This document shows, one piece after another, positions 3,174-38,590 of a stretch of 64,000 nt of DNA. This DNA is from Haematobia irritans. Its lineage: Eukaryota; Arthropoda; Insecta; Diptera; Muscidae. The stretch's first letter is position 1. Every line of letters starts with the position of its first letter. Where the stretch lies: NCBI RefSeq assembly GCF_050003625.1, contig NC_134400.1, forward strand, positions 197,793,918-197,857,917, in the 5' to 3' direction. The position numbers were made by a program, and so were the translations under genes. The notes beneath the pieces are model-generated. The model was not told the origin of the DNA. It saw only the letters and a list, made by a program, of their open reading frames with translations, and did not search any database.

Positions 3174-3229
<56 letters not shown>

Positions 3230-13028: not shown

Positions 13029-14555
13029 ACAAGTAAGGAAAGTCTAAAGTCGGGCGGGGCCGACTATTATACCCTGTACCACTTTGTAGATCTAAATTTT
13101 CGATACCATATCACATCCGTCAAATGTGTTGGGGGATATATATAAAGGTTTGTCCAAAATACATGCATTTAAATATCACTCGATCTGGACAGAATTTGAT
13201 AGATTTCTACAAATTCTATAGACTCAAAATTTAAGTCGGCTAATGCACTAGGGTGAAACACAATGATAGTAAAAAATATAGGAAAGATTTAAATATGAAG
13301 CAATTTTAGGGAAACTTCACAAACTTTTATTTATGATTTATCGCTCGATATATACGTATTAGAAGTAGAGGAAAATTAAAGTAATTTTTACAACTTTTCG
13401 AGTAAGCAGAGGCGATTTTAAAAGGGAAATGTTCGTATTTTGACCATTTTTGTTGAAATCAGAAAAACATATATATGGGAGCTATACCTAAATCTGAACC
13501 GATTTCAACCAAATTTGGCACGCATAGCATCAATGCTTATTATACTCCCTGTGCAAAATTTCAACTAAATCGCAGTAAAAAATTGGCCTCTGTGGTCATA
13601 TGAGTGTAAATCGGGCGAAAGCTATATATGGGAGCTATATCTAAATCTGAACCGATTTCAATCAAATTTGGCTCACTTGATTACACTACTAGTTGTACTC
13701 CTAGTGCAAAATTTCAATCAAATTGGGCCAAACCTCTGGTTTCTAGGACCATATTAGTCAATATCGGGCGAAAGATATATATGGGAGCTATATCTAAATC
13801 TGAACCGATTTCAACCAAATTTGGCACACATGACTACACTACTAATTGTACTTCTAGTGCAAAATTTCAACCAAATTGGGCCAAAACTCTGGCTTCTAGG
13901 ACCATATTAGTCAATATCGTGCGAAAGATATATATGGGAGCTATATCTAAATCTGAACCGATTTCAATAAAATTTATCACACTTGACTACACTACTAATT
14001 GTACTTCTAGTGCAAAATTTCAACCAAATTGGGCTAAAACTCTGGCTTCTAGGACCATATTAGTCAATATCGGGCGAAAGATATATATGGGAGCTATATC
14101 TAAATCTGAACCGATTTCAACCAAATTTGGCACACATGACTACACTACTAGTTGTACTTCTAGTGCAAAATTTCAAGCAAATCGGGATAAAACTCTGGCT
14201 TCTGGATCCATATAAGTGCATATCGGGCGAAAGATATATATGGGAGCTATATCTAAATCTGAACCGATTTCTTCCAAAATCAATAGGGTTCTATTCTGAC
14301 CTAAAACAGGAACATGTGCCATGTGCCATGACATTTGAAGTGGATTAGACGTAAACTACGACCTAGACTTTGATCACAAAAATGTGTTCACAGACAGACG
14401 GACGGACGGACAGACGGACATGGTTATATCGACTCAGGGAACCACCCCGAGCATTATTGACAAAGATACCATGTGTCTACCTCGTCTCCTTCTGGGTGTT
14501 ACAAACATATGCACTAACTTATAATACCCTGTTCCACAGTGTGGCGCAGGGTATA
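13029..14555 (+). mobile_element. DINE family C element C3, complete
   Basis: Complete family C element, about 1.53 kb, inserted in the minisatellite. The 5' end is CAAGTAAGGAAAGTCTAAAG with the hairpin GTCGGGCGGGGCCGAC and TATACCCTGTACCAC. The 3' hairpin (ATACCCTGTTCCACAG with GGCGCAGGGTATA) ends at 14555. The unit start ATGGGAGCTATA occurs at 13475, 13628, 13781, 13934, 14087 and 14240, an exact 153-bp step each time, giving five whole units. The frame from 13628 is open for 195 codons (YMGAISKSEPISTKFGTHDY and following). The tail carries GACGGACGGACAGACGG and a block matching the INE-1 tail. Confidence 0.93.
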
Positions 14556-16385
14556 CAAATATTGTCAAAATTTTATGTCTATAGAAAATTTTATCCAAAT
14601 TTTATTTCTATAGAAAATTTTGTCAACATTTTATTTCGATAGAAAGTTTTGTCAACATTTTATTTCTATAGAAAATTTTGTCAAAATTTTATCCAAATTT
14701 TATTTCTATAGAAAATTTTGTGAACATTTTGTTTATATAAAAAATATTGTCAAAATTTTATGTCTATAGAAAATTTTATCAAAATTTTATTTCTATAAAA
14801 AATTTTATGAAATATTTGTTTCTATAGAAAAGTTTGTCGAAATTTTATTTTTATTGAAAATTTTATCCAAATTTTATTTCTATAGAAAATTTTGTCAAAA
14901 TTTTATTTATATTAAAAATTTTATACAAATTTTATTTCTATAGAAAATGTTGTCAAAATTTTATTTCGATAGAAAAATTTGTCAACATTTTATTTATATA
15001 AAAAAAATTGTCAAAATTTTGTATCTATAGAAATTTTTGTCAAAATTTTATTTCTATAGACAATTTGATTAAATTTTTATTACTGTAGAAAATTGTGTCA
15101 AAATTTTAATTATATAGAAAATTTGATTAAATTTTTATTTCTGTAGAAAATTTTGTCTAAATTTTAATTATATAGAAAATTTTATCAAATTTTTATTTCT
15201 ATAGAAAATTTTGTCAAAATTTTATTTCTATAGAAAATTTGATTAAATTTATATTTCTGTAGAAAATATTATCAAAATTGTATTTCTATAAAAAATTTTA
15301 TCAAATTTGTGTTTCTATAGAAAATTTTATCAAAGTTTTATTTCGATAGAAAATTTTGTCAAAATGTTATTTCTATATAAAATTTGATTATTTGATTTTT
15401 ATTTCTATAGAAAATTTTGTCAACATTTTATTTATATAGATACATTTTATTAAAATTTTATTTATATTAAAAATGTTGTCAAAATGTTTTTTCTATAGAA
15501 AATTTGATTAAATTTTTATATCTATAGAAAATTTTGTCAAAATTGTATTTTTATGGAAAATTTTATCCAAATTTTATTTCTATAGAAAATGTTATCAAAA
15601 TTTTATTTATATTAAAAATTTTATCCAAATTTTATTTCGATAGAAAATTTTGTCAAATTTTTATTTGTATAGAAATTTTTGCCAACATTTTATTTATATA
15701 AAAAATTTTGTCAAAATTTTATGTCTATAGAAAATGTTATCAAATTTTTATTTCTATAGAAAATGTTATCAAAATTTTATTTCTATAAAAAATTTTATTT
15801 ATATTAAAAATTTTGTCAAAATGTTATTTCTATAGAAAATTTGATTAAATTATTAGTTCTATAGAAAATTTGATAAAATTTTTTTGCCAACATTTTATTT
15901 ATATAAAAAATTTTGTCAAAATTGTATTTTAATAGAAAATGTTATCCAAATTTTATTTCTATAGAAAATGTTATCAAAATTTTATTTATATTAAAAAATT
16001 TGTCAAAATTTTAGTTCGATAGAAAATTTTGTAAAATTTTTATTTCTATAGAAAATTTTGCCAAAATTTTATTTATATTGTAAAATTTTTATTTCTATAG
16101 AAAATTTTGCCAACATTTTATTTATATAAAAAATTTTGTCAAAATTTTATTTCTATAGAAAATGTTATCACATTTTTATTTCTATAGAAAATTTTATCAA
16201 AATTTTATTTCTATAAAAAATTTTATCGAATTTTTGTTTCTATAGAAAATTTTGTCAAAATTTTATTTCGATAGAAAATTTTGTCAAAAGTTTATTTCGA
16301 TAGAAAATGTTGTCAAAATTTTATTTCCATAGAACATTTTTTCAAAATTTTATTTCTATAGTTAATTTTTATCAAAATTTTATTT
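14556..16385 (-). repeat. 30-bp minisatellite, reverse orientation (right half)
   Basis: About 60 units of the 30-bp minisatellite continuing the block left of C3, with many variant units (TTTGATTAAATTTTTATTTC and the TATATTAAAAA variant). Several variants recur in the same order (for example at 15400-15660 and 15820-16080), pointing to local block duplication. Confidence 0.95.
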
Positions 16386-16524
16386 TATTATCGAAAATTG
16401 GTGAAGCTATATTTGGCAAAAACCTACCAAAACATCACAAATTCTACCAATCTACCAAACAGTAAAAAGATCTACCATTTTCGTTAGAATTCGACCAACA
16501 TCCGTGGCTTCGACGCGTGTGTAC
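16386..16524 (-). repeat. Second conserved end of the minisatellite element
   Basis: The sequence CTACCAATCTACCAAACAGT, AAAAAGATCTACCATTTTCG and nearby CTACCAAAACATCACAAATT matches in reverse complement the stretch at 24862-24960 that begins the compact minisatellite element there. Minisatellite blocks therefore end in this sequence on one side and in the CTCGAGTGGCAA terminus on the other. After it, GGCTTCGACGCGTGTGTACT leads into unique DNA. Confidence 0.6.
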
Positions 16525-16828
16525 TCATCACCAGTATTACTGGTAAGTATTTGGGCTCATTTATCCTCTTGATACAATGCAATGTCATATCTGTATACAT
16601 CCATATATGATATATCATTCATAAGTGCATTGTTGACATGGCTTACATCACAGTGGACATTGTATTCGTGCCTGGGGCGTCTGATTTCTTGGGGTTTCCT
16701 TTGCTATTGAGGTGATTTGTTGATGGTGTGATTTGAGAAAATGCTAATTAAGATGAACATTTCAGTATAGAAGAGATATTTACGAAATTCTTGTTAACTA
16801 ATATCGCAAAATTGCAGAAGTATTGGCA
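16525..16828. other. No recognised feature
   Basis: About 300 bp of unique AT-rich DNA between the minisatellite block and a mariner relic. No repeat family or open frame is recognised. Confidence 0.5.
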
Positions 16829-17100
16829 TACAGGGTGGTTGATATGTATTGACACCAACTTCTGGTTGTTATCACATCTAAATCGCTGATCTTACAGCAA
16901 ACATCGATACTGGAATAAATAGTTTTGTTATGTATTTTAGTGTTTACTGGAATTCAAGATTGCTTTATAATTAGCTCACATCAGATGCACCAAAAGTGGC
17001 TATCGTTAGAGATACCAAATTCGACCCGAATTGAAAAATGGGATTGCACAATAAAATTACACTGATTGGAGCCAAGGAGTTACTTCGCTTGCACAAAAAA

Positions 17101-17283
17101 GTAGTCAATTTGAATTTCTGTGATGAGAAACCATTTAAAATTGAGCACTTTGCGATTCGTTGCGATGATCGTTTTTAGTTGCCAAAAGTGTCAGATACAA
17201 ATGTACACCTTCGATTGGACACCAGAACTCAAGCGAAGATCAAAATAAATGCCGAATATTATCGTAAAATATCCTAAAGACAG
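17101..17283 (+). pseudogene. mariner-like transposase fragment
   Basis: One frame starting at 17101 reads VNLNFCDEKPFKIEHF, a stop, LPKVSDTNVHLRLDTRTQAK, then IKINAEYYRK and a stop. The (F)xDEKxF motif around the first catalytic Asp and the KINAEYYRK motif are typical of the DDE domain of mariner-superfamily transposases, which separate them by about 60-70 residues; here part of that interval is deleted. The following 230 bp (to about 17510) are too decayed to place with confidence. It lies inside the TIR-bounded relic 16831-19155, which supports the call. Confidence 0.55.
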
Positions 17284-17530
17284 TACAGTACAGGTTGCCT
17301 TTTATAGTTCAGGATTAATCATTGAAAATCGCTTGCATGCGTTTGAACCAATTGTCGACTCACTTTTGCCACACCGATCATTCAGGATACCAAGTCAGAA
17401 CTATATGCTGTGTATCCAGCTGGCTCTGCTCCCGAAATTAAGACGTTTTTGTCCACAAAAACTCCAATTTTTAATCAAAATTCCTCACAAAAATCCCCAA
17501 TAAATTTTTGACAATTTTTTATGGTAAAAA

Positions 17531-17773
17531 CAAGTGAGTAAAGTAGAACGTCGGGCGGCGCCGACTATATCATACCCTAAACCACCCCTACTGAATTAGT
17601 AAACATAAGCATTTGTGGGGTATCATTGGTATAGGTTTTGGAGAACATAAAGGGGGGTACATGTTTATGGGTGTCTTGTCACAATCTGAGCAGATATGTC
17701 TAATATTAGGAGCTATAGTTTAGTTTGCACCAAAAGAATTAGTATGCCACTAATATTGAGTCCATTATTAAAA
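17531..17773 (+). mobile_element. DINE 5' fragment of a fourth family (D)
   Basis: It starts CAAGTGAGTAAAGTAGAACG, then a hairpin GTCGGGCGGCGCCGAC and CATACCCTAAACCACC. This is the family C head plan with different sequence after about 55 bp (CATTTGTGGGGTATCATTGG and following). It is cut at 17773 where B2 begins. No central repeats remain, so the family is defined only by this head. Confidence 0.65.
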
Positions 17774-19091
17774 CAAGTATATACCGCCTTAAGTTCGGCC
17801 AGGCCGAAGCTTATCTACCCTCAACCATGGATTGCGTAGAAACTTCTACTGAAGACTGTCATCCACAATCGAATTACTTGGGTTGCGGTAACACTTGCCG
17901 ATGGCAAGGTATCTTAAAACTTCCTAACATCGTAATATATACCATACCATATAGTCCATACGTCGTATATATTAAACTAAAAAAGGCCGATTACATACGT
18001 ATATAATTAAGTTTAAAGTTTCTATAGAAATAAAATTTTGACAACATTTTCTATAAAAGTAAAATTTGAAAAAAATTTTCTATAGAAATAAAATTTGGAT
18101 AAAATTTTCTATAGAAATAAAATTCTGACAAAATTTTCTATAGAAATAAAAGTTTGACAAAATTTTCTATAGAAATAAAATTTTGACAAAATGTTCTATA
18201 GAAATAAAATTTGGACAAAATTTTCTATAGAAATAACATTTTGACAATGTTTTCTATAAAAATACAATTTTGGTAGATTATTTTTGGCTCGAGTGGCAAC
18301 CATGATTATGAACCGATAAAGACCAATTTTTGTGTGATTGGGGATCGCCTATATATAACTATAGACCGATATGGACCAATTTTGGCATGGTTATTAGCGG
18401 TCTTATACTAACACAACGTTGCAAATTTCAAGCGGATCGGATGAAATTTGGTTCTCTTAGAGGCTCCGCAAGCCAAATCGGGGGATCGGTTTATATGGGG
18501 GCTATATGTAATTATGGACCAATATGGACCAATTCTTGCATGATTGTTAGAGACCATATACTAACACCACGTACCCAATTTCAACCGGATCGGATGAATT
18601 TTGCTCCTCTAAGAGGCTCCGGAGGTCAAATCTGGGGATTGGCTTATATGAGGGCTGTATATAATTATGGACCGATATGGACCAATTTTTGCATGGTTGT
18701 TAGAGACCATATATTAACACTATGTACCAAATTTCAGCCGGATCGGATGAAATTTGCTTCTCTTAGAGCAATCGCAAGCCAAATTTGGGGGTCCGTTTAT
18801 ATGGGGCTATACGTAAAAGTGGACCGATATGGCCCATGTGCAATACCATCCGACCTACATCAATAACAACTACTTGCGCCAAGTTTCAAGTCGATAGCTT
18901 GTTTCGTTCGGAAGTTAGCGTGATTTCAACAGACGGACGGACGGACATGCTCAGATCGACTCAGAATTTCACCACGACCCAGAATATATATACTTTATGG
19001 GGTCTTAGAGCAATATTTCGATGTGTTACAAACGGAATGACATAGTTAATATACCCCCCCCCCCCCCAAATTCCAATGGTGGAGGGTATAA
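17774..19091 (+). mobile_element. DINE family B element B2, complete
   Basis: Head CAAGTATATACCGCCTTAAG with TTCGGCCAGGCCGAAG. A 270-bp minisatellite block (18002-18275) ends in the CTCGAGTGGCAACC junction. About three and a half 153-bp central repeats follow (18330-18830; frame WTNFGMVISGLILTQRCKFQ and similar). The tail has CAGACGGACGGACGGACATG and TTTCGATGTGTTACAAACGG. The terminal hairpin contains a run of 16 C near 19052, possibly an assembly-sensitive homopolymer. About 1.3 kb, no coding capacity, and the reference for reconstructing B1. Confidence 0.9.
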
Positions 19092-19126
19092 ATAGCGCTT
19101 TAGGTTAGGTTATAAATAGCGCTTTA
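19087..19126. repeat. 16-bp direct repeat around GGTTAGGT
   Basis: TATAAATAGCGCTTTA occurs at 19087-19102 and again at 19111-19126, separated only by GGTTAGGT. GGTTAGGT is the 3' tail of the local SINE in minus orientation and the 16-bp repeat is the size of a SINE target-site duplication. The first copy overlaps the final TATA of B2. Confidence 0.7.
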
Positions 19127-19156
19127 CTTTGTTGCATTACATATCAACCACTCTCT

Positions 19157-20865
19157 ACTTAAGGTGGGTTATTTGTCATTGAAATCCTTAAATGCATCAG
19201 GCAATGTGTCCACCTGTCGTCGACATGCCGTACAGTTGTCGTAGGGCTTCTTTATTGAGCCACCTTAAGGGAATGTGGATATGTAAGTCAAGATAATGAC
19301 ATGCCAACAAATGAAGTTGTTATCATTATCGTCGGTAATTATGGTGATGGTTGAAATTTGTGCAAAATTGCAGCTAATTCAGTTGAATTGAAGTAGCAGT
19401 TTCTATAGACAGGGTAGATTACAGGAAGTTTTATAAATTTAATATGGGTGAAAATATTTTCTATTCAAAAAAGTGATCTTCACTTTTTGGATTTTGGCAT
19501 CAATTTCGAATAAATGTCGCGGTTTATTCTTCACTTGGGATATTTTTAGGATGCAGCCTGACACTTTTATATATAATACATATTGACTCCATTTGAACTA
19601 ATTGGTGATTTAGAATTTAACCTTAAGAAATTAACAATTTATAACCTAAAGAAATTTTAATCGAGAATATTTTCTACGAACACAAAAAAAAATTATAATA
19701 AAAATTGATCATTTTCCCCCATTACTGCTTTAGCACTTTGGCATAAATATCGTTTTCCCATAAAAAAATCTCTGCCATAAATTTTTGTTGGCAATTTTCA
19801 TCAAGCCAAGCCAAAGCAAAATCATTTGAATGTTTTATGAATCAACGATCATATTTTTCTTCAGCGATATTCTTTATCAAAATGCCCATCACAATTGAGC
19901 ACCCAAACCTTGTCCACATTGAAATGACAATGTCCTCAACACGATTTGGAGGGAATCTCAACTTGGCTATATTATGTAGCAAAAATCCGTATGGAAATCA
20001 TGAGCAATTGTAATAATTCATTGGAACACACCGCAAAAAAAAGAAGCTTTGGAAGGCTAGGTGAAATGACGGACCATGTTAGCCATGGAGGTATGATCAC
20101 AGATTCACGTTATAGATTCAGAGACCACAATTGCTAAATGCGTAGGCTTTATACTCTCCATCCATTTTTTTTGTTGTTGTTCGAATATAGTAAACTTAGG
20201 ACAAATTTTAAACAAGAAATACAGAAAGCCAAAAAAAGCAAAAAGTATGAGCATCATAATTTCCGATTGCTGTGTAGGGACACTCAAAAAAAAAAAAAAT
20301 AATAAAAAACAATGAAGAGTACTTCATTATGATTTTTTTTCAATAGAAAATTCAAAACGTGAGTATTCCTAGAAAATAGCACAAAAAGAGTCACAAGCCA
20401 TAAAAGGTGGCACATTCGTTTGAAAAAAAGTTTCACAAAAAGGGGCACAGTTTTTCCATAAAGAAAATTCAAAAATTAAAAACTTTTATATCAGGCTATA
20501 ATATAGCATAGTTACATAACTTTTTCTAAATTAGATTTTAACTAGTCTGACATTAATTTTATCTCCATTTGGTAGTAAATAAATATTTGAAATTGAAATA
20601 TTCGGAAAATGTACTTGATTTCTATTCTATAAACAATTTTTAGTGCATAACTTTAGGCGGTAAAAAATATACACTGATAAAATTATGATCAAAAAGAAAA
20701 AAACGCTCACAAAATTTAATATTCGACTCGTGAACTCGGCTTTTTGTTAAGAATCCAAATATATATGCACTCTTAACGCTATTTGCGATTTAAATGTGTA
20801 AAATATTTTACAGTATAAATTAATGTAATTAAAAAGTGGCACATAAAGGTAACACAAACAGCAAA
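19157..20865. other. Unique AT-rich DNA, no gene seen
   Basis: About 1.7 kb of non-repetitive AT-rich sequence with short A/T homopolymers (for example 20288-20310). Open frames of about 60 codons in several registers lack recognisable motifs. It is probably intergenic or intronic. Confidence 0.5.
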
Positions 20866-23195: not shown

Positions 23196-23308
23196 TGTAA
23201 AATTTTCTCCGAATTTTGGTAGATTGTTTGTATCTGGAGTGGCAACAGTGCTTACCATCGTAGGTTTCGCTTTTCATGCATCCAATTTTCCTGATTAGTA
23301 GCACGAAT

Positions 23309-24583: not shown

Positions 24584-24861
24584 TAAGTATATACGGCCAT
24601 AAGTTCGGCCAGGCCGAATCTTATGTGCCCTCCACCATGGATTGCGTAGAAATTTCTACTAAAGACGGTCATGCACACTTGAACTACTTGGGTTGCGGCC
24701 GATGGCAAGGCATCTTAAAACTTCTGAACATCATCTTCATATATAGTAGACAAAAGAAAGGTCGATTAAATACGTATATATTCAATTCTTGAACGGTATG
24801 TATAGGAGTCAGAATTGAAATATGGGGGTCGCTTTATATGGGGGCTATATACAATTATGAG

Positions 24862-25110: not shown

Positions 25111-25161
25111 TGCTTACCATCGCTTTTCATGCATCCAATTTTCCTGATTAGTAGCACGAAT

Positions 25162-25512: not shown

Positions 25513-26116
25513 ATGGGGGCTATATATAATTATGGAGCGATATGGACAAATATTGCATGGTTATTAGAGACTATATATGTACGTACACCACGTACAAAAT
25601 TTCAACCGTATCGGATGAATTTTGCTTCTCCAAAAGACACCGGAGGTCAAATCTGGGGATCGGTTTATATGGGAGCTGTATATAATTATGGACCGATATG
25701 TATCAATTTTGGCATAGTTATTAGAGACCATATACTTACATCACGTACCATATTTCAACCGTATCGGATGAATTTTGCTCCTCAAAGAGGCTCCGGAGGT
25801 CAAATCTGGGGATCGGTTTATATGGGGGCTATATATAATTATTGGCCGATGTGGACCAATTTTTGCATGGTCATTAGAGAACATATACCAACACCATGTA
25901 CTAAATTTCAGCCGGATCGGATGAATTCTGCTCCTCCAAGAGGCTCCGGAGGTCAAATCTGGTGATCAGTTTATATGGGGGCTATATATAATTATTGACC
26001 GATATGGACCAATTTTTGCATGGTTGTTAGAGACCATATACTAACATCACGTACCAAATTTCAACCGGATCGGATGAAATGTGCTTCTCTACGACGATCC
26101 TCAAGCCAAATCTGGG

Positions 26117-26303
26117 GGTCCGTTGTAGAGCTCGACCGAAGCATTGGCTTCAGCTTCGGCATTAGGCCAAAAATCGTTAATCGGCCTTCGGTGTCAAGAG
26201 GCCGATTAACCGAAGCCGAAGCTTTTTGAATAATTTGTTTGATATTGATTTGCCCAAGTGTTGAATTTGTCTCGGTCAAAACTCCCAGTAAAAAAAAAAG
26301 TAA
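26117..26303. repeat. Inverted-repeat (fold-back) segment between DINE copies
   Basis: Bases about 26125-26225 can fold. GAAGCATTGGCTTCAGCTTC and GGCATTAGGCC pair loosely with GGCCGATTAACCGAAGCCGA and AGCTTT, and an inner TTAATCGGCC pairs with GGCCGATTAA around a short loop (TTCGGTGTCAAGA). It separates the broken end of B3 from the head of B3b. The family is unknown to me and it could be a fold-back element fragment. Confidence 0.6.
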
Positions 26304-28204
26304 AAGTATATACGGCCGTAAGTTCGGCCAGGCCGAAGCTTACGTACCCTCCATCATGGATTGCGTAGAAACTTCTTCTAAACACTGCCATCCACAATCG
26401 AATTACTTAAGTTGCGGTAACGCTTGCCGATGGCAAGGTATCTTAAATCCTCCTAGCACCATCTTCTAAATTGTATGTAAGTCCATACGTGGCATATATT
26501 AAATCAAAAAAATCAATCCAATACGTATATAATTCAGTTTGACAAAGTAGACATAAAATTTTGACAAAATTTTCTACAGAAATAAAATTTTAACAAAATT
26601 TTCTATAGAAATAAAATTTTCACAAAATTTTCTATAGAAATAAAAATTTTGACAAAATTGACTATAGAAAGACAATTTTGACAAAAATTTCTACAGAAAT
26701 AAAATTTTAACAAAATTTTCTATAGAAATAAACTTTTGACAAAATTTTCTATAGAAATAAAATATTGGTAGATTATTTTTGGCTCGAGTGGCAACCATGA
26801 TTATGAACCGAATAAAATTTGAACAAAATTTTCTATAGAAATAAAATTTTGACAATGATGAAAATTTTATTATGAACCGAATAAAATTATAACAAAATTT
26901 TCTCTAGAAATAAAATTTTGAAAAAATTTCTATAGAAATAAAATGTTGACAAAATTTTCTATATAAATAAAATTTTGGTAGATTATTTTTGGCTCTAGTG
27001 GCAACCATGATTATGAACCGATATGGACCAATTTTTGTGTGATTGGACCAATTTTGGTATGGTTGTTAGCGACCATATACTAACACCACGTTCCTAATTT
27101 GAACCGGATCGGATGAATTTTGCTCCTCCAAGAGGCTCCGGAGGTCAAATCTGGAGAACGTTTTATATGGGGGCTATATAATTATGGACCGATATGGACC
27201 AATTCTGGCACGTTTTTTAAAGATTATATACTAACACCATGTTCAAAATTACAACCGGATTGGATGAAATTTGCTTCTCTTGGAGACTTCGCAAGCCAAA
27301 TCTGGAGGTCGATTTACATGGGGTCTATATATAATTATGGGCCGATGTGGACCAATTTTTGCATGGTTGTTAGATACCATATACCAACATCATGTAGCAA
27401 ATTTCAGCCGGATCGGATGAAAGTTGCTTCTCTTTGAGGCTCCGCAAACCAAATCTGGGGATCGGTTTATATGGGGGCTATATATAATTATGGACCGATG
27501 TGGACCACTTTTTGCATGATTGTTAGAGACCATATACCAACACCATGTACCAAATTTCAGCCGGATCGGATGAAATATGCTTCTCTTAGAGGCTCCACAA
27601 GCCAAATCTGGGGATCGGTTTATATGGGGGCTATATATAATTAAGGACCGATATGGACCAATTTTTGCATGGTTGTTAGAGACCATATACTAACATCATG
27701 TTCCAAATTTCAGCCGGATCGGATGAAATTTGCTTCTCTTTGAGGCTCCGCAAGCCAAATCTGGGGATCGGTTTATATGGGGGCTATATATAATTATGGA
27801 CCGATGTGGACCAATTTTTGCATGGTTATTAGAGACCATATAACAACACCATACACCAAATTTCAGCCGGATCGGATGAAATATGCTACTCTTATAAGCT
27901 CCGCAATCCAAATCTGGGGGTCGGTTTATATGGGGGCTATACGTAAAAGTGGACCGATAGGGCCCATTTGCACTACCATCCGACCTACATCAATAGCAAC
28001 TACTTGTGCCAAGTTTCAAGTCGATAGCTTGTTTCGTTCGGAAGTTAGCGTGATTTCAACAGACGGACGGACATGCTCAGATCGACTCAGAATTTCACCA
28101 CGACCCAGAATATATATACTTTATGGGGTCTTAGAGCAATATTTCGATGTGTTACAAACGGAATGACAAAGTTAATATACCCCCATCCAATGATGGAGGG
28201 TATA
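26304..28204 (+). mobile_element. DINE family B element B3b, complete
   Basis: Head AAGTATATACGGCCGTAAG with TTCGGCCAGGCCGAAG. The minisatellite block (26540-26985) is duplicated: the junction TTTTTGGCTCGAGTGGCAAC appears at 26777 and again (CTCTAGTGG) at 26990. About six 153-bp central repeats follow (27020-27945; frames read WTNFCMVVRYHIPTSCSKFQ and similar), then the tail with CAGACGGACGGACATG and a TATACCCCCATCC..GGAGGGTATA hairpin ending at 28204. About 1.9 kb, without coding function. Confidence 0.92.
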
Positions 28205-28266
28205 AAAAAATTATGAAGTTTATATTAAATAAAATTTTATTATTTTAAAGAAATTTGTCTTTAATA

Positions 28267-29166
28267 AAGAGTGGTTAAATTGTAAGGGCCGATGTTGAAT
28301 GTGAACCACACCTAAACGCCAAGTTTTTTTTCCGAATTTTATTTGACATTTATCTATTTCAGACTTACTCAATTTGAACCATGGAGAGATACACAATCCA
28401 ACAACGTGTTAAATAGTTCCAAGAAATAGCAACAGTGGATGATCAATTTTCGAAGAAAATCATCTTCAGTGATGAGACACATTTTCACCTCAGTGGATTC
28501 GTCAATAAACAGAATTGCCGCATTTGGACGAATGAGAATCCAAAAGTGATTGTCGAAAAACCAATGCACCCACAAAGAGTGACTGTTTGGTGCGGTTTAT
28601 GGGCTGGCGGCATCATCGGGCCGTATTTTTTCCAAAATGAGGCCGGTCAGGCAGTTACTGTGAATGGTGTTCGCTATCGTGAGATGATAAGGAACTTTTT
28701 ATGGCCCGAATTGGAAGATATGGATGTGGACGATATGTGGTTTCAGCAGGACGGTGCCACTTGCCACACAGCTAACGAAACAATGGCTCTTTTGCGCAAC
28801 AAATTCAATGGCCGTGTTATCTAACGTAATGGCGATGTCAATTGGCCGCCAAGATCATGAGATTTGACACCGTTGGACTTTTTTCTTTGGGGTTATATGA
28901 AAGAAAAGGTGTACGTCGATAAGCCAGCAACAATTGAAGACCTAAAGGATGAGATAATTCGGCACATTAACGTCATAGAACCTCCATTATGCCTCAGCGT
29001 CATCGAAAATTTGGACCGTCGGATGAAGGTGTGCCACCGAGGTCGCGGTGCCCATTTGGTCGATATTTTGCTCCATACATAATTGAGTAATACCAATATG
29101 TCATAATAAAGTAAAATTACAATAATTTCAAAATCAACATCGGTCCTTGAAATTTTAACCACCCTT
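28267..29166 (+). mobile_element. mariner element (DD41D type), internally deleted
   Basis: Left end AAGAGTGGTTAAATTGTAAG and, read in reverse, right end AAGGGTGGTTAAAATTTCAA are terminal inverted repeats of about 32 bp that continue to GGxCCGATGTTGA. They are flanked by TA at 28265-28266 and 29167-29168. At 900 bp it is shorter than a typical 1.3-kb mariner because the N-terminal half of the transposase gene is deleted. It sits about 60 bp beyond the 3' hairpin of B3b. Confidence 0.95.
28381..29082 (+). pseudogene. mariner DD41D transposase pseudogene
   Basis: The start ATG at 28381 gives MERYTIQQRVK, then a TAG stop (28414) and an in-frame jump that removes most of the DNA-binding domain. 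The DDE domain is nearly whole: FSDETHF holds the first Asp, WFQQDGATCHT the second, and LTPLDFFLWGY the third, with 41 residues between the second and third. The frame is kept throughout but has further stops at 28822 (TAA) and 28858 (TGA, where Cys is usual before DLTPLD). The C-terminus HRGRGAHLVDILLHT is intact to 29082. It encodes no active enzyme. DD41D is the spacing of the rosa-like mariner lineage; that assignment is from memory of the family. Confidence 0.93.
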
Positions 29167-29300
29167 TATTTTGTAAGTTGCCCAAATTTAGGTGGGTAAT
29201 CTTTATTATCACGTAAATATTTTTTTCAATGTATACTAACTTAGTTTTTGCTGGGATGAAATAATTGCATAGATAGACGGACTGCGATATTTGGTTTAAG

Positions 29301-29651
29301 GTTAGGTTAGGTTAGGTTAGGTGGCAGCCCGATGTATCAGGCTCACTTAGACTATTCAGTCCATTGTGATACCACATTGGTGAACTTCTCTCATATCACT
29401 GAGTGCTGCCCGATTCTATGTTAGGATCAATGACAAGGGACCTCCTTTTTATAGCCGAGTCCGAGCGGCGTTCCACATTGCAGTGAAACCAATTAGAGAA
29501 GCGTTGAAACCCTCAGAAATGTCACCAGCATTACTGAGGTGGGATAATCCACCGCTGAAAAACTTTTTGGTGTTCGGTCGAAGCAGGAATCGAACCCACG
29601 ACCTTGTGTATGCAAGGCGGGCATGCTAACCATTGCACTACTGTGGCTCCC
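29301..29651 (-). mobile_element. tRNA-derived SINE with 15-bp TSD
   Basis: Minus-strand SINE. The tail (GGTTAGGTTAGGTTAGG) is at the left and the tRNA-like head (GGGAGCCACAGTAGTGCAAT read on the minus strand) ends at 29651. It is flanked by GATATTTGGTTTAAG (29286-29300) and GATATTTGCTTTAAA (29652-29666), a 15-bp target-site duplication with two mismatches. A and B boxes are both present. It is the best-preserved independent insertion besides 44959-45315. Confidence 0.95.
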
Positions 29652-29667
29652 GATATTTGCTTTAAAG

Positions 29668-31792
29668 TCTAGTAATTATTTTGAGACCTTTTCTCTAATT
29701 CTTAAAATTTGCACTTAATTACTGTTTACCTTTATGTTCCTCCTCCTCCATTACATTCTATTCTTATTCCTTTCTAAGGAAATCCAATCAATTTGCCATA
29801 TGGCATATCCGAATCATATGTGATCTCAGTGATATTTCTGACTGTTTTCCAGCCTCCCATCAAAAAAAAAAAAAAAAAAACTCCAATAAAAATTAAATAG
29901 AACACATTTACCATCAATGCCTCTGGAGAAGGGGAAGCTAAGCCAATTTACCTACGCTTGCTTTAGCAATTTTAAGGCAAAAATTAAAAAAAAAAAAAAA
30001 GAATTCTTCTTTCGAAGAATGCTTTCAAAAGGTTCATCTCATTCGTATGGGGCTAGAGCAATAACTAACTGACAACGTAAGCGTTTGGCGTTATTAAAAT
30101 CTCAACCCACACACCTGTGCAATTACCCAAAACAGTCAAACAAAATGAAAAAAAAAACAAACAAAAATCCAAACACATGATAATGCTGCTGAGACCGGAT
30201 GATGATGATGATGACGATGACAACAAGGAAGACCATGTTCTTGATGACGAGCTATGGTGGATGTAAATGGGGATCAGTATCAACACTGTTCAAGCAAATA
30301 TGTTGGATCAAAAGTAGCATTATCATCATCATTACACTACATGGAGGTGTAGTATATGCCGAGAGAGAGAGAGGGATCTGAGTATGGCATACACAACCAC
30401 CACTACTAATATAACCAACATCTCGACATATATCATCAACATGGCTATTGTTGTAGAGATGAGATAATGTTGCCATAATCATGTTGTTGCCAAAAGATAA
30501 GGATGAGGTTTTTGGACAAGCAAACTAGCTAGATAGCTAGCATATTGAACGTTGTTGTAGACCCTCTCTCTCTCTCTGTCTCTCTTTCTCTCACTGTATG
30601 ACGTAGTTATTATTATTCCTCATCAGAGGATCATTCACTCAAAAGAAAAAGGAAAACAAAAATAGGAGTGTTGCCGTACTAATGGCTTATCAACAGGAGA
30701 TTTGCAAACAAGCTAGTTGCTACAGCCACTCATGGCATGGCATGTTCATATTTATTTGTGGTCCATGGTTATAGATTGTGCATCTATTCTTGCTGTTGTT
30801 GTTGTTATTATTATTGTTGTCGTTATTGTTACTGCTATAGTAATTCGTTGTTATTACCTTTCTGCCAGATAGCTTTTAAGAATGTTGTATGATGTGGTTA
30901 GTAGTCGGGATGTTGTTGTTGTTGTTGTTGTTATTGTTGTACCCCCTGTCAATGTTGTTGATTACATTTGAGCTTTGAGAACATTTCATTTGGCATTGTA
31001 CTCAAACTAATGAAAAATTTTATAATTGCATTGCTGGCTGGCTGGCATCTTTTACTTCATGCTGATGGTATGAGATTTTGTGTGTTAGTTTGATATGAAA
31101 GAGTATACATTTAGTGAAATCTTGATGAACAGTGTTGCCATCTTAATTGTGAACATTTTGAGAAAATTATTTGTCATGTGTCATGTTATTTTCATTAGAA
31201 GTTAGCATATAAGACAAAAATTAGTCATCTCTTACAGCCACATTTTTTATGAAGGCTATGGAAATTCGGTCTAGTCGGTGATGAAACATGTATAGCTAGG
31301 CTTGTGTAGATTGGTATCTGGTATTTTCTTTTCAGTAGCTTAATAAAAAAAATCCCCTCTTCCATCTTCTCTGTCCTAGAATGCCCGTATATAATTGGAT
31401 TAATATGAATAAATGTTGTTTTTCAAAAAAATATCAAAGCTGAAATTAAAAAGGATTGTGGTTGTATTTAGTTTCGCCGTCTGAGAAACTTTATTTAGAA
31501 TGTACTACACTTTCTTCTAAAACGACTTTTATAGAAATATTGGTAAAATCGAACCCGTATTGTTGTTTTTGCGGCAGTGTCAATGAACTCTAGATAATGG
31601 TGAACAGCTTTATAGGTTGGGGCATTGATTCTTGGTTTTGGAAAATAAATCATGCAGCGAAATCAAAGAGCATTTTAATGCTACTGAGGAGAATCGTTAA
31701 AAATTGGTTAAAATTGACCGTAGTTCATTGCACTTTGTGATGAGCCGAAAAAGATCTATCGCTGAGGATAAACTAACTCTGAACAACCATGG
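29668..31792. other. Unique DNA rich in microsatellites, no gene seen
   Basis: About 2.1 kb of the least repetitive DNA in the window. It holds A runs at 29862 and 29986, GATGATGATGATGATGACGA at 30197, GAGAGAGAGAGAG at 30362, a CT run at 30565-30600 and TTG/TTA trinucleotide runs at 30795-30850 and 30913-30945. These are typical of fly introns or intergenic DNA. The frames at 30065-30482 are translated microsatellites, not genes. No splice or domain evidence was found. Confidence 0.55.
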
Positions 31793-32137
31793 CAATCGCG
31801 AGATCATTCCACAGTAAAATTCGGTAGATTTTCGGTGGTGCTTAGTGACGTTGAAGGAATCATGGATCCGCTTCTACCTCGAACTTCGACAAGTTCGAGG
31901 ATTGCATTTGATAAATAAGCTTAAAAACAGACCTCGAGATACTTGGAAGAGTAGCAATTTTACAAATTCACCTGTGCCGAAACTGAGCATCAAGTGCAAC
32001 CGAGGATCATTCCACAGTAAAATTCGGTAGATTTTCGGTGTCACTTAGTGACGTTGAAGGAATCATGGATCCTCTTCTACACACTGAACACTTCGGAATT
32101 GTCGCAACTAGATTGCATTTGAAAAACAAGCTTAAAA
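31793..32137 (+). repeat. About 203-bp tandem repeat, left part
   Basis: ATCATTCCACAGTAAAATTC starts at 31803 and again at 32006, a 203-bp step. Each unit contains GATTTTCGGTG, GTGACGTTGAAGGAATCATG and CTTGGAAGAGTAGCAATTTT. The same repeat continues after DINE B4 at 38778. It may come from the repeated end of some gene or transposon, but I cannot identify it. Confidence 0.85.
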
Positions 32138-33154
32138 CAAGTATATACGGCCGTAAGTTCGGCCAGGCCGAATCTTATGTACCCTCCACCATGGATTGCG
32201 TAGGAACTTCTACTAAAGGCTGTCATCCACAATCGAATTACTTGGGTTGCGATAACACTTGCCGATGGCAAGGTATCGTAAAACTTTTTAACACTGTCTT
32301 CTAAATTGTAAGTTAGTCCATAAGGGGTATATATTAAACAAAACAAGTATATACAGTAGTAAATTCGGCCGGGCCGAATTTTAAATACCCACCACCATGA
32401 ATCAAATATGATAGTTTACTTTGAAAACTCTTCGTCGTAGTGGGTTACTTGATAATATATAGAATTGTAGGGGGTTTGATGACAAATCTTCTCCCAAGGC
32501 AGTCAGCTCCCGAAGACAAACTTTAAAGATTCTACCTATGAAGACCAGATAAGATTCTAGATTTATGAGAACCAATTTTGTTTGAGTATTAGAGAAATTA
32601 TAAACATATCGTGTATATGATTAAATTACGCCTTGATTTGAAATCTTAAATTTGTAGAGTAAAATCTGGAAATTTTACTTTCAGTTTGAAGCAATTTTCA
32701 TGATCAGTGCGCCTGCTATTTTAGAGAATTTTAGAATTGAATAAACGATAATACTTTATAAGAAAAGGAAATTTCGTTTGTCTAAAATTTCATTATCAAT
32801 TACTAATTTCCAGCAAATTGGATAAAAACTATGGATTCTAGAAGCCCAAGAAATAAAGCCGGGAGATCGGTGTATATGGGGGCTATACCAAAACATGGAC
32901 CGATAGGTACCATTTGCTACTCACATATTTCAAACAAATCGGCTAGAAAACATAGTCTCTAGACGCCCAAGAAGTAAAAATCGAGATATCAGTCTATATG
33001 GGGGTTATACCAAAAAATGGACCGATATACCTCAATTTCGGCACACTTATTTGTGGTCTAAAAATACCTCTAGATTTCGAATTTCAGGCAAATCGAGTAA
33101 TAAATACAGTTTATAGAAGCTCAAGAATTTCAGGCAAAGCGGATGGTAAATATA

Positions 33155-35246
33155 CACTGAAAAAACAGTGAACCCACCAGGAAGAAAACTTTTGATTAAT
33201 TTTAGAAAATTTTGAATGGTTTTAGAAATTTTTAACTAAACAGTATTACAAGCGCTGGCATCACGCCGATATCACAAAAATAAGTAAATATTTTTCGACA
33301 AATTCAAGAAAATTTATTAGACATAAATAATTTTTTTCACTTTTTAAAGAAAATTTTGTAGTATGAAGGAAAAAATTGGAGTTCAAAATTGCAAGAATGT
33401 CTTTAGTGACATACGAAGTTCATGATGGACGCTGTTGTAGTAAAATTTACAAATTTTAAGAAATAATGAACTATTTTGTGAGAAGTACCAATTTAGTAAA
33501 ACTTTTTACTTCATTTGCGTATAATTTTTATACCCACCACCATAGAATGGTGACGGGGGTACAATAAGTTTGCCATTCCGTTTGTAACGCATCGAAATAT
33601 CGATTTCCGACTATATAAAGTATATATATTCTTGATCAGGGAGAAATTCTAAGACGATATAACGATGTCCGTCTGTCTGTCTGTCTGTCTGTCTGTTGTA
33701 ATCACGCTACAGTCTTCAATAATGAAGCAATCGTGCTGAAATTTTGCACAAACTCGTCTTTTGTCTGCAGGCAGGTCAAGTTCGAAGATGGGCTGTATCG
33801 GTCCAGGTTTTGATATAGTCCCCATATAAACCGACCTCCCGATTTGGGGTCTTGGGCTTATAGAAACCGTAGTTTTTATCCAATTTGCCTGAAATTTGAA
33901 ATCTGGAGGTATTTTGTGACCATAAAGAGGTGTGCCAAAAATGGTGAGTATCGGTCCACGTTTTGGCATAGCCCCCATATAGACCGATCTCCCGATTTTA
34001 CTTCTTGGGCTTATAGAAACCGCAGTTTTTATTCAATTTACCTGAAATTGGAAATCTAGAGGTATTGTAGGACCACAAATACGTGTGCCAAAAATTGTGA
34101 GTATCGGTCCATATTTTGGTATAGCCCCCATATAAACCGATCTCCCGATTTTACTTCTTTGGCTTATAGAAATCGCAGTTTTTATTCAATTTACCGGAAA
34201 TTGGAAATCTAGAGGTATTGTAGGACCACAAATACGTGTGCCAAAAATTGTGAGTATCGGTCCATGTTTTGGTATGTTCCCCATATAAAACGACCTCCCG
34301 ATTTGGGGTCTTGGGCTTCTAGAAACCTTATTTTTTATCCAATTTGTCTGAAATTGGAAATCTGGAGGTATTTTAGGACCATAAAGAAGTGTGCCGAAAA
34401 TGGTGAGGATCGGTCCATATTTTGGTATAGCCCCCATATAGACCGATTTCCCGATTTTACTTCTTGGGCTTCTAGAATCCGAAGTTTTTATCCTATTTGC
34501 CTGAAATTGGAAATCTAGAGGTATTTTCGGGTCATAAAGAGGTGTGCCGAAAACGGTGAGTATCGGTCAATATTTTAGTATAGCCCCCATAAGAACGATC
34601 TCCCGATTTAACTCCTTGGGTTTCTAGAAACCGTAGTTTTTATCTGATTTGCCTGAAATTGTAAATATTCTGGTATTTTAGGCTCACAAAAACGTGTATC
34701 GGATTAGGTTTTTATAGGTCCATTTGGTAATGCCTCCATATAGACCGACCTCACTTCTTGAGGGTGTAGAAGGCGCACTGATGATGAAAATTGCTTGAAA
34801 CTCAATGTAAAATTTCCAGATTTTACTTCTACAGATTTAAGATTTCAAATCAAGACGTTATTTTATAATTTTCTTGCACACTTACAAGAGATGTTAATGA
34901 TTCCTCTAAAACTCAAACAAAAATGGTTCTTATAAATCCAGAATCTGATATAGTCCTCATGGATGAAATCTTTAAATTTATCTTCGGGAAGTGTCCTCAA
35001 GGCCTCAAGCCCTCCTGAAATTTCAAAGGAAACCCTAATATTTGGTTCATGGTGGTGGGTATTTAAGATTCGGCCCGGCCGAACTTACTGCTGTATATAC
35101 TTGTTTCCTGTCTTTTAGTTCATTTAACTAACGTACGCAAAAAATTATTAGAGTAAATGAAACTTTCTCCAAATATAATAATTTCATGAACTAAAATATA
35201 GTTAAATTGGCTTTAGTGAAATAGTGAGTTCACTTTTTTTTGAGTG
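33155..35246. mobile_element. TA-flanked MITE in A2, holding A3
   Basis: The left end CACTGAAAAAACAGTGAACC and right end in reverse (CACTCAAAAAAAAGTGAACT) match at about 17 of 20 bases. TA flanks both (33153-33154, 35247-35248). Restoring one TA gives GGTAAATATAGTTTCTAG, exactly the sequence of neighbouring A units (for example 35847). Without A3 the MITE is about 0.5 kb. The interior has no gene. The design suggests a Tc1/mariner-type non-autonomous element. Confidence 0.92.
33529..35103 (-). mobile_element. DINE family A element A3, complete
   Basis: Complete minus-strand family A element. The terminal hairpin (TATACCCACCACCATAGAAT..GTGACGGGGGTA) is at the left. A GTCTGTCTGTCTGTCTGTCT run follows at 33668. 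Central repeats occupy 33760-34740, about six units. The head (GGTGGTGGGTATTTAAGATT, CGGCCCGGCCGAAC, then CTGTATATACTTG) is at the right, ending at 35103. It lies wholly inside the MITE 33155-35246, so it is the youngest insertion of the stack. About 1.58 kb; no coding capacity. Confidence 0.92.
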
Positions 35247-36844
35247 TAGTTTCTAGAAGCCCAAGAAGTAAAATCGGGAGATCGGTCTATATGGGGGCTA
35301 TACCAAAAAATGGACCGATGGGCACAATTTTCGGCACACATTTTTATGGTCCCAAAAGAACTCTAGATTTTCAATTTCAGGAATATCGGATAGAAAATAT
35401 AGTTTCTAGAAGCGCAAGAAGCAAAATCGGGAGATCAGTCTCTATGGGGCTTATATACAAAATATGGACCGATGAGCACCATTTTCGGCACACCTTTTTA
35501 TGGTCCTCAAATACCTCTAGATTTCCAATTTCAGGCAAATCATATTGTAAATATAGTTTCTAGAAGCAAAATCGGGATATCGGTCTATATGGGGGCTATA
35601 CCAAAACATGGACCGATGGGCACCATATTCGGCACACCTTTTTATGGTCCTCAAATACCTCTATATTTCTCTATATAATTTCAGGCAAATTGGATAAAAA
35701 CTACGGTTTTTATAGGCCCAAGACTCCAAATCGGGAGATCGGTCTATATGGGGGCTATACCAAAATATTGACCGATAAGGACCATTTTCAATACACTTCT
35801 TTATAGTCCCACAATATCTCTAGATTTCCAATTTCAGGCAAATCGGATGGTAAATATAGTTTCTAGGCGCCCAAGAAGCAAAATCGGGAGATCGGTCTAT
35901 ATGGGGGCTATATCAAAACATGGACCGATACGGACCATTTTCGACTCACCTCTTTATGGTCCCAAAATACCTCTAGATTTTCAATTTCAGGCAAATCGGA
36001 TGGTAAATATAGTTTCTAGACGCCCAAGAAGCAAAATCGGGAGATCGGTCTATATGGGGGCTATATCAAAACATTGACCGATACGGACCATTTTCGACTC
36101 ACCTCTTTATGGTCCCAAAATACCTCTAGATTTTCAATTTCATACAAATCGGATAGAAAATACTGTTTCTAGACGCGCAAGAAGCAAAATCGGGAGATCG
36201 GTCTATATGGGGGCTATATCAAAACATGGACCGATACGGACTATTTTCGACACACCTCTTCATGGTCCCAAAACACCTCTAGATTTTCAATTTCACACAA
36301 ATCGGATAGAAAATACTGTTTCTAGACGCCTAAGAAGCAAAATCGGGAGATCGGTCTATATGGGGGCTATACCAAACCATGGACCGATACGGACCATTTT
36401 CGACACACCTCTTCATGGTCCCAAAATACCTCCGGATTTCCAATTTCAGGCAAATCTGATAAAAACTACGGTTTTTATAGGCCCAAGACCCCAAATCGGG
36501 AGGTCGGTTTATATGGGGACTATATCAAAACTTGGACCGATATAGCCCATCTTCGAACTTGACCTGCCTGCAAACAAAAAACTAATCTGTGCCAAATTTG
36601 GGGACGATAGCGCCATTATTGAAGGCTGTAGCGTGATTACAACAGACAGACAGACAGACAGACAGACAGACGGACAGACGGACATGCTTATATCGTCTTA
36701 GAATTTCTCCCTGATCAAGAATATATATACTTTATATAGTCGGAAATCGATGTTTCGATGTGTTACAAACGGAATGACAAACTTATTATACCCCCGTCAC
36801 CATTTTATGGTGGTGGGTATAAAAAAGGCCGATTAAATACGTAT

Positions 36845-37290
36845 ATAATTCTGTTTGACAAAATTTTCTATAGAAATAAAATTTTGACAAAATTTTCTAT
36901 AGAAATAAATACTTGACAAAATTTTCTATAGAAATAAAATGTTGACAAAATTTTCTATGGAAGTAAAATGTTGACAAAATTTTCTATAGCAATAAAATTT
37001 TGACAAAATTTTCTATAGAAATAAAATGTTGACAAAATTTTCTATAGAAATAAAATGTTGACAAAATGTTCTATAGAAATAAAATGTTGACAAAATTGTC
37101 TATAGAAATAAAATGTTGACAAAATTTTCTACAGAAATAAATTTTTTACAAAATTTTCTATAGAAATAAAATTTTGACAAATTTTTCTATGGAAATAAAA
37201 TGTTGACAAACATTGCTATAGAAATAAACTTTTTACAAAACTTTCTATAGAAATTAAATTTTGACAAAACTTTCTATAGTAATAAAATTT
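36845..37290 (+). repeat. 30-bp minisatellite block inside DINE B4
   Basis: About 15 forward units. Many carry the AATGTTGACAAAATTTTC variant, giving this block its own signature. It lies between the B head region and the first central repeat, as in B1, B2 and B3b. Here the usual CTCGAGTGGCAA junction is missing and units run straight into TTTTTACATGGCTGTTAGAG. Confidence 0.93.
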
Positions 37291-38590
37291 GACAATTTTT
37301 ACATGGCTGTTAGAGGCCATATACTAACGAAATGTACCAAATTTCAACCGCATCGGATGACTTTTGCTCCTCCAAGAGGCTCCGGAGGTCAAATCTGGGG
37401 ATCGGTTTATATGGGAGCTATATATAATTATGGACCGATATGGACCAATTTTTGCATGGTTGTTAGAGATCATATACTAACACCACGTACCAAATTTCAA
37501 TCGGGTAGGATGAAGTTTGCTCCTCCAAGAGGCTCCGGAAGTCAAATCTGGGGATCGGTTTATATGGGAGCTATATATATTTATGGACCGATATGGACCA
37601 ATTTTTGCATGGTTGTTAGAGACCATATACTAACACCATGTACCAAATTTCAGCCGAATCGGATGAAATTTGCTTTTCTTAGAGCGATCGCAAGCCAAAT
37701 CTGCGGATCGGTTTATATGGGAGCTATATATAATTATGGACCGATATGGACCAATTTTTGCATGGTTGTTAGAGACCATATACTAACACCACGCACTAAA
37801 TTTCAATTGGATCGGATGCATTTTGCTCATCCTAGAGGCTCCAGAGTTCAAATCTGGGGATCGGTTTATATGGGAGCTATATATAATTATGGACCGATAT
37901 GGACCAATTTTTGCGTGCTTGTTAGAGACCGTATACTAACATCAGGTACCCAATTTCAAACGGATCGGATGAATTTTGCCCCTCCAAGAGGCTCCGGAGG
38001 TCAAATCTGGGGATCGGTTTATATGGGAGCTATATATAATTATGGACCGATATGGACCAGTTTTTGCATGGTTGTTAGAGACCATATACTAACACCACGT
38101 ACCAAATTTCAATCGGGTAGGATGAAGTTTGCTCCGCCAAGAGGCTCCGGAGGTCAAATTTGGGGATCGGTTTATATGGGAGCTATATATATTTATGGAC
38201 CGATATGGACCAATTTTTGCATGGTTGTTAGAGACCGTATACTAACATCAGGTACCAAATTTCAACCGGATCGGATGAATTTTGCCCCTCCAAGAGGCTC
38301 CGGAGGTCAAATCTGGGGATCGGTTTATATGGGGGCTATATATAATTATGGACCGATATGGACCAATTTTTGCATGGTTGTTAGAGACCGTATACTTAGA
38401 CCACGTACCAAATTTCAACCGGATCGGATGAATTTTGCTGCTCCGGAAGGCTCCGCAAGCCAAATTTGGGGATCGGTTTATATGGGGGCTATACGTAAAC
38501 TTGGGCCGATATGGCCCATTTTCAGTACCATCCGACCTACATCAATAACAACTACTTGTGCCAAGTTTCAAGTCGATAGCTAGTTTCGTT
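37291..38590 (+). repeat. Eight 153-bp central repeats of DINE B4 (440-codon open frame)
   Basis: The unit start TGGACCGATATGGACCAATT recurs at 37431 and 37584 and then every 153 bp to about 38350. One frame is open from 37261 to 38583, reading WTNFCMVVRDHILTPRTKFQ, PDRMNFAPPRGSGGQIWGSV and YMGAIYNYGPI per unit. This looks like a coding tandem repeat, but no signal, start context or domain is evident and the frame ends in the ordinary DINE tail. I treat it as non-coding repeat. It is the longest stop-free stretch in the window. Confidence 0.9.

Follow-up and report, generated by a model that had tools for sequence, protein, structure and literature searches.

Non-autonomous Helentrons of the HINE/DINE type are recognised by subterminal inverted repeats (subTIRs) that start with (T)ATACCC, a 3′ stem-loop, a GTCY microsatellite and insertion between T and T, as described in PMC2374699 and PMC4067079. 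For 12 Drosophila genomes, the DINE-1 central repeats are given in the corresponding section of PMC2374699 as about 50–500 bp long and as not homologous among species. DINE-TR1 repeats are about 150 bp long, whereby high identity is confined to their first 30 bp; dmgsat-7 comprises about 540 copies in about 82.6 kb, which by division yields about 153 bp each (PMC9957191, in its description of these repeats). The DINE-TR1 repeat of D. virilis (154TR) is reported to measure 154 bp, which is no multiple of three (PMC6922343, repeat description). In oyster HINE families, flanks and repeats of 140–180 bp diverge together and some elements contain double arrays, according to the family descriptions in PMC7492417. 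Here, we analyzed a stretch of 64,000 nucleotides from the horn fly Haematobia irritans (contig NC_134400.1, positions 197,793,918 to 197,857,917; hereafter the window), which holds three families of elements, A, B and C, with central arrays of 153-bp units. With a probability of roughly 0.8, these units, old and non-coding, form the central tandem repeats of three families of related non-autonomous Helentrons resembling DINE-TR1. This reading is based on the HINE anatomy of six complete elements together with one empty site; on Helentron copies that combine ends, array and protein domains, a conserved box and a second Helentron with an A/B-type 3′ end; and on even codon positions, synonymous counts, recurrent stops, spacing counts and the indels of flanks and repeats.

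The elements share with DINE-1/HINE the (T)ATACCC subTIRs, the 5′ inverted repeat, the 3′ stem-loop, the microsatellite and the T|T insertion (PMC2374699, PMC4067079, defining parts), but a single homologous 153-bp repeat has been retained in all three families, in contrast to the DINE-1 elements of the 12 Drosophila genomes as characterised there. Like DINE-TR1 of Drosophila and Bactrocera tryoni, they combine a Helentron structure with central repeats of about 150 bp, here 153 bp, across divergent elements, and the conserved segment of about 30 bp in DINE-TR1 agrees with the conserved box described below, the likeness to TR1 being one of description only (PMC9957191, same description). The commonest period differs, with at least 164,197 perfect-anchor pairs at 153 bp here and a unit of 154 bp in D. 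virilis (PMC6922343, repeat description). The double arrays of family B and the co-divergence of flanks and repeats resemble group 1 of Cg_HINE from the Pacific oyster, again by description and in a different animal, whereas the oyster HINEs could not be linked to autonomous elements by their authors (PMC7492417) and the repeat is found here in a Helentron that has C-type ends. In comparison with autonomous Helentrons (Rep-PIF1-endonuclease), that Helentron likewise has Rep, PIF1 and Exo_endo_phos in one frame, between C-type ends, but additionally contains a central tandem array, in antisense orientation, in its 5′ leader. No report of a 153-bp Helitron tandem repeat of Drosophila was found in the open-access literature, and six words of the repeat sequence were not found in open-access paper text.

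Anatomy and Relationship of the Elements

Six complete elements, A1, A2, B2, B4, C2 and C3, were delimited in the window by nhmmer matches to their ends. All of them begin with (T)ATACCC, and the subterminal repeat returns in inverted orientation near the other end, which finishes with ACTTGT except in B4, where it is ACTT. Inspected by eye, the subTIRs are 12–15 bp long (TATACCCTGCGCCAC with 3′ GTGGTGCAGGGTATA in C2, TATACCCACCACCAT with ATGGTGGTGGGTATT in A2), and a further inverted repeat lies beside the 5′ subTIR (TATACCCTG...CAGGGTATTATA in C, ATACCC...GGGGGTATAATAA in A). A 3′ palindrome (C GTCGGCCCCGCCCGAC, A TTCGGCCCGGCCGAA, B TTCGGCCTGGCCGAA) is present in five of the six complete elements and has been lost in A1. 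Eight arrays (A1, A2, A3, B1, B2, B5, C2 and C3) are accompanied by a (CCGT)n(CTGT)n microsatellite of at least four units, which is thus found in five of the six complete elements, that of B4 falling below this length. Element C2 interrupts a B element (B1) at ..TATAAT|TAAG.., and since B2 holds the uninterrupted sequence, C2 was inserted between T and T without a target-site duplication, as judged by this one empty-site comparison. The reading frame of the units referred to here as frame 0 bears no coding signature (see below), in line with the lack of coding capacity that characterises HINE/DINE elements. By this anatomy, all three families belong to the non-autonomous Helentrons of the HINE/DINE type.

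Tandem Repeats Finder (TRF) reported a period of 153 at 12 places of the window and of 149 at a 13th (54874–55217). Units were measured from anchor to anchor by means of the conserved word TATATGGGRGCTATA, whereby partial units at the array ends were excluded and the anchor at 18797 was placed separately. Exactly 153 bp were obtained for 49 of the 60 units, the remaining 11 measuring 122, 145, 148, 149 (twice), 151, 152 (three times), 156 and 159 bp. The original prediction that three families step by 153 bp was therefore confirmed by both approaches.

In ungapped alignments, the consensus units of A, B and C fit best at offset 0, with 97, 94 and 88 identities in 153, compared to 51–59 at the next-best listed offsets; of equal length, they differ by 55–68 substitutions. 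It had been claimed that all three align without a gap. This is clear for A and B, while B and C score better with gaps, a gain that lies within chance (P 0.08–0.19). Outside the arrays, the 5′ blocks of the three families are homologous, with the same order of similarity as in the repeat units (A-B > A-C > B-C), and four of the six comparisons of 3′ blocks exceed all shuffles (A-B twice, A-C once, B-C once), whereas two do not. These data show that the end structure, the 5′ block and the repeat of the three families go back to common descent.

Autonomous Helentrons Carrying the Repeat

A profile search of the genome yielded matches to Helitron_like_N at 69 places. Two of the copies, designated L065/L070 and L066/L069, share an element of about 10.4 kb with 99.3–99.7% identity over matching blocks. 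L065 contains an open frame of 2169 amino acids with matches to Helitron_like_N (2.4e-22), PIF1 (3.6e-26) and Exo_endo_phos (4.3e-4), the last one below the curated cut-off; in L066 the Exo_endo_phos match is above it (7.8e-6) and the gene is split over several frames. At its 5′ end, the element is most similar to family C (1.3e-20), with further matches to A (7.5e-15) and B (5.8e-10); at the 3′ end, it likewise matches C (1.3e-13). From the 5′ end onwards, the element consists of the microsatellite, a C-like array antisense to the gene, and the gene itself. The same 5′ end and antisense array occur in the further copies L071/L072, L073 and L074, of which L071 also has the same 3′ end and L071/L072 an open frame of 2221 amino acids; protein domains were scanned in L065 and L066. 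Two of these further copies, on contig C4, contain stops within the Rep match. An autonomous Helentron with the same unit and with C-type ends is thus present in this genome, and its sequence shows the array in antisense orientation between the 5′ end and the gene for Rep, helicase and endonuclease. Together with the homology of the 5′ blocks, this upholds the proposal that A, B and C come from one repeat-bearing Helentron lineage.

A genome search with the L065 protein, in which 22 of 229 candidates were scored, gave 34 matches and led to a second Helentron on contig C107, with an open frame of 2145 amino acids that is 49–51% identical to the L065 protein. Its 3′ side (1,050 bases) has an A/B-type terminus (B2 7.1e-9, B4 1.3e-8, A2 9e-8) and no match to C.

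The majority sequence of 10 different 153-bp Helentron units was compared with the family consensuses. Each unit contains a box of some 60 bp (positions 139–153 and 1–45), in which the majority sequence differs from C at 1 of 60 positions, compared to 24 of the 93 positions elsewhere (P 2e-5). Differences inside and outside the box amount to 18 and 45 relative to A (P 0.018) and to 15 and 48 relative to B (P 9e-4). These comparisons demonstrate a conservation that acts at the DNA level, as read from the aligned units, and chiefly concerns this one box. The box is a candidate protein-binding or replication/regulatory site of the Helentron 5′ leader.

Some further observations were made at these loci. 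At oriented positions 2340–2440 of L072, an ACTTGT 3′ end abuts the next TATACCC 5′ end in a head-to-tail junction, and on contig C4, at about 47.654–47.680 Mb, Helentron protein matches are clustered and two 5′ ends are separated by about 10.35 kb, which resembles a tandem arrangement. L066 contains a 63/189-bp tandem repeat near the start of the long frame (1132–1923), the period of which is a multiple of three. In L068 (4187–5922) and L067 (883–2057), A- and B-type HINE ends and units are located in or beside Helitron gene regions and were apparently inserted there.

Maintenance of the 153-bp Period

To determine the spacing of units genome-wide, the 1.17-Gb assembly containing the window was searched with the pattern anchor-N(123..153)-anchor. 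Since perfect anchors are required, the resulting counts are lower bounds. Altogether, 98,125 + 98,470 = 196,595 anchor pairs are spaced at 138–168 bp, and 81,932 + 82,265 = 164,197 of them (83.5%) are spaced at exactly 153 bp, whereas a spacing of 151 bp occurs 1,483 + 1,565 = 3,048 times and one of 150 bp, rarer still, 581 + 582 = 1,163 times. The reversed pattern, used as a control, gave 0 matches genome-wide. Units of exactly 153 bp alone make up about 25 Mb of the genome (164,197 × 153). In addition, units were measured at loci outside the window. From 37 loci (L008–L044), 12 overlapping ones were dropped and 25 were scanned, which yielded 110 different units; 87 of these are 153 bp long in this non-random sample of best C hits and first pattern places on one contig. 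Unit lengths do not vary freely, and free variation would have spoken against the original prediction; the "strict" conservation of 153 bp that it had claimed applies to 49 of the 60 window units and to 83.5% of the genome-wide pairs and not to the remainder. The repeat pattern also matches at 6 loci in bacterial genomes, and no match was found in viral contigs or phages.

The original prediction had offered a structural constraint as one explanation for the constant length. Between array consensuses of the same family there are 0 indels to 68 substitutions, compared to 11 to 77 in the flanks (Fisher P = 0.0025), in pairs that were chosen by the analyst as independent and with consensuses built from 153-bp units only, so that their net length cannot differ. 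When all pairs are taken, which are not independent, the repeats show 13 indels to 488 substitutions (28 pairs) and the flanks 56 to 420 (37 pairs); 5 of the 28 repeat consensus pairs, all from C, align better with compensating gaps. In eight C elements, 28 indels to 259 substitutions in the flanks contrast with 5 to 277 in the repeats, in a biased sample in which seven elements were ranked by repeat score, events of the reference are counted multiply and two of the repeat "indels" represent one whole lost unit. The shortage of indels in the repeats supports, without proving it, that the period is better kept than the length of the flanks, and the existence of length variants speaks against an absolute constraint.

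We take homogenisation of the arrays to be the main cause of the kept period, and selection on the spacing is possible in addition. The arrays would be copied and homogenised as units by rolling-circle transposition and unequal exchange, such that units out of register would seldom spread and the 153-bp period persists; the spacing of the box may be under some selection as well. If, instead, selection on spacing were the principal cause, a box every 153 bp would be phased, either at nucleosome scale or because Rep or a factor of the host putatively binds it in an iteron-like manner, and length changes would cut transposition or expression. The share of anchor pairs at exactly 153 bp, the 55–68 substitutions between consensuses of equal length, and the position of the array with its conserved box in the Helentron 5′ leader would all fit such selection. 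However, the Helentron units besides those of 153 bp include lengths of 141, 142, 151, 152, 155 and 156 bp, the unit of D. virilis has 154 bp (PMC6922343, repeat description), and plain homogenisation yields the same bias without selection, so that we regard selection as the principal cause as rather unlikely. It is doubtful, too, whether the array acts as a functional iteron-like Helentron module, in which the 60-bp box recurs in the 5′ leader of the autonomous element at a spacing of 153 bp that is under selection, putatively bound by Rep or a host chromatin factor. If this were true, non-autonomous families might have kept the module because they are better mobilised with it, and it would have seeded the genome with at least 164,000 sites at regular spacing.

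Analysis of the Reading Frame

The original prediction had also considered that the units were once coding, with repeats of 51 residues, and some results on frame 0 are in favour of this. The frame is open in the consensus units of A, B and C, whose translations all contain the listed residues (YMGAI at positions 1–5, PI at 10–11, T at 13, F at 15, FQ at 30–31 and K at 36), and its longest opening, from stop to stop, spans 441 amino acids (37258–38583, in B5). Among the 49 window units of 153 bp, frame 0 has fewer stops than the other five frames (28 compared to 84–198), and outside the window it is lowest in stops in A and B (4 and 13). If the ancestor is taken to be open and invariant columns are held fixed, the probability that all three families stay open is 0.03, which is mildly unusual and makes no compelling case; the probability that any of the six frames is open in a dinucleotide shuffle is 0.17–0.28 per family, and the 16-unit consensus of family A possesses a second open frame. 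"Stop-free", as it had been called, holds for the three consensuses but not for the individual units, since 20 of the 49 window units and 45 of the 87 outside units of 153 bp (C 30/47, B 11/27, A 4/13) carry a frame-0 stop. A stop at codon 44 recurs in 10 of 17 C units of the window (arrays C1, C2, C3 and C4) and in 28 of the 47 outside C units, in which codons 46 and 36 are stops in 17 and 9 units, respectively, and in which frame +1 has fewer stops than frame 0 (45 compared to 61). The majority Helentron unit has a stop at codon 44 as well, and in five Helentron copies 22 of 31 units, which lie antisense to a real gene, contain a frame-0 stop, some of these counts repeating one ancestor because L065 and L066 are near identical.

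Substitutions are spread about evenly over the codon positions; such a spread, with the alignment explained by DNA-level motifs alone, had been named in the original prediction as a result that would refute it. Extra alleles within families at first, second and third positions number 35/37/31 in A, 33/32/30 in B and 37/34/28 in C in the window, and 34/33/30, 50/41/47 and 61/71/58 outside. Differences between consensuses (A-B 25/17/13, A-C 23/20/18, B-C 24/21/23) do not depart from evenness (P ≥ 0.13), and the third position is never the most variable one. Synonymous counts were used rather than a full dN/dS (ratio of nonsynonymous to synonymous substitution rates). Within families, 45 synonymous changes were observed vs 45.2 expected in A, 44 vs 41.0 in B and 45 vs 58.4 in C. 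Between families, 1 of 35 changed codons is synonymous in frame 0 for A-B, 5 of 34 for A-C and 6 of 38 for B-C, compared to null means of 5.9, 5.3 and 4.3; none of the frame-0 counts shows a significant synonymous excess, the excess for B-C having P = 0.23. Amino acid identity in frame 0 exceeds the null in two comparisons, with P 0.022 for A-C and P 0.006 for B-C, but frame +1 behaves likewise in A-B and A-C (both P 0.006), so that clustered DNA conservation explains it. Multiples of three are few among the non-153 lengths (2 of 11 in the window, 3 of 23 outside), and the spacing of 150 bp is rarer than that of 151 bp. A 154-bp unit such as 154TR, being no multiple of three, likewise weakens the coding reading (PMC6922343, repeat description). 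For five consecutive units of the B frame, no protein homologue was detected at E 0.001 among 6,971 candidates. In Pfam, the repeat frames matched ADAMTS_C, DAGAT and other entries; these hits resemble weak partial matches summed over the repeats and were discarded. Thus, codon positions, synonymous counts, stops, protein and Pfam searches, unit lengths and the Helentron copies led us to reject the notion that frame 0 is or was protein-coding, which we consider very improbable in spite of its openness, the joint retention and the few stops in B. The open frame was probably inherited by descent, aided by a box that is free of stops in this frame and by chance, and is presumably not translated.

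An independent origin of A, B and C, with convergence on a nucleosome-like length, is the least credible explanation of all: oyster HINE repeats do cluster at 140–180 bp (PMC7492417, family descriptions), but the offset-0 alignments with 88–97 identities in 153 and the homologous 5′ blocks in the same rank order speak against it.

Several observations weigh against the interpretation as non-coding, homogenised Helentron repeats. The period is not absolute, as only 14 of the 31 units in the five Helentron copies have 153 bp, and the outside array L016, with spacings of 143, 180, 143, 184 and 143, seems to be an amplified length variant. Units deviating from 153 bp are more frequent at array edges (8 of 28) than internally (3 of 32), which is only a trend (P = 0.09). 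The array is known from Helentrons with C-type ends, the terminus read in the C107 element being the 3′ one. A DNA hairpin at the box found no support in four folds (z 0.22 to -1.40), and family B has 4 frame-0 stops where 9.8 would be expected under random substitution (P = 0.03). The tempting coding reading has been removed and a testable non-coding one put in its place. Whereas the central repeats of DINE-like elements were reported to be specific to each species among 12 Drosophila genomes (PMC2374699, corresponding section), they appear here as a shared, box-bearing part of the Helentron 5′ leader. As at least three families have diverged without losing the repeat, the role of central tandem repeats in Helentrons becomes directly testable.

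Features of the Window

Table 1. Elements and central arrays of families A, B and C in the 64-kb window.
Feature	Position	Strand	Basis and remarks
C3, complete family C HINE	13029..14555	-	nhmmer ends; 5′ TATACCC at 14555, 3′ end at 13029
C3, central array, 153-bp units	13465..14278		TRF, unit spacings
C2, complete family C HINE, T|T inserted in B element	5931..7308	+	ends; flanks match B2
C2, central array, 153-bp units	6210..6870		TRF, spacings
C1, central array	596..950		TRF, spacings
C4, central array; 4/4 153-bp units with 2-3 frame-0 stops	43137..43784		TRF, spacings, stops
C5/C6, central arrays (153- and 149-bp units)	54874..55770		C-type 3′ end 56168-56220
A1, complete family A HINE	1587..3400	-	array 2043-3064; 3′ palindrome lost
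A2, complete family A HINE	33529..35105	+	array 33795-34697
A3	35248..36820	-	array 35248-36556, 5′ end 36762-36820; no 3′ end found
A4	32342..33130	-	degenerate array (122-bp spacing); A-type 3′ end 32342-32399
B1, central array of disrupted B element	7795..8437		TRF, spacings, ends
B2, complete family B HINE	17772..19089	-	29-bp array 18015-18272, 153-bp array 18349-18836
B3, central array fragment	25513..26124		TRF, spacings
B4, complete family B HINE	26304..28203	-	29-bp array 26548-26977, 153-bp array 27044-27941
B5, central array	37293..38522		element 5′ end 38723-38775

Much of the window is occupied by a 29-bp tandem repeat (AAATTTTCTATAGAAATAAAATTTTGACA and variants), which was found at 18015–18272, 26548–26977, 51180–54250 and 59083–63559. 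Inside complete B elements it adjoins the 153-bp array, such that there are two array types per element, and elsewhere it forms arrays of 3–4.5 kb. Two regions (28417–28824 and 58356–58989) contain frames that by eye resemble fragments of mariner-type transposases, with Pfam giving no match or weak unrelated ones. Elements are also nested in each other. At 5703–10776, C2 lies within B1, the 5′ end of which is apparently split by about 2.1 kb, with 36 bp located at 10741–10776. At 32136–38775, A4, A2 and A3 apparently sit inside B5 and separate its 3′ part from its 5′ part, as suggested by end matches and the flanking text.

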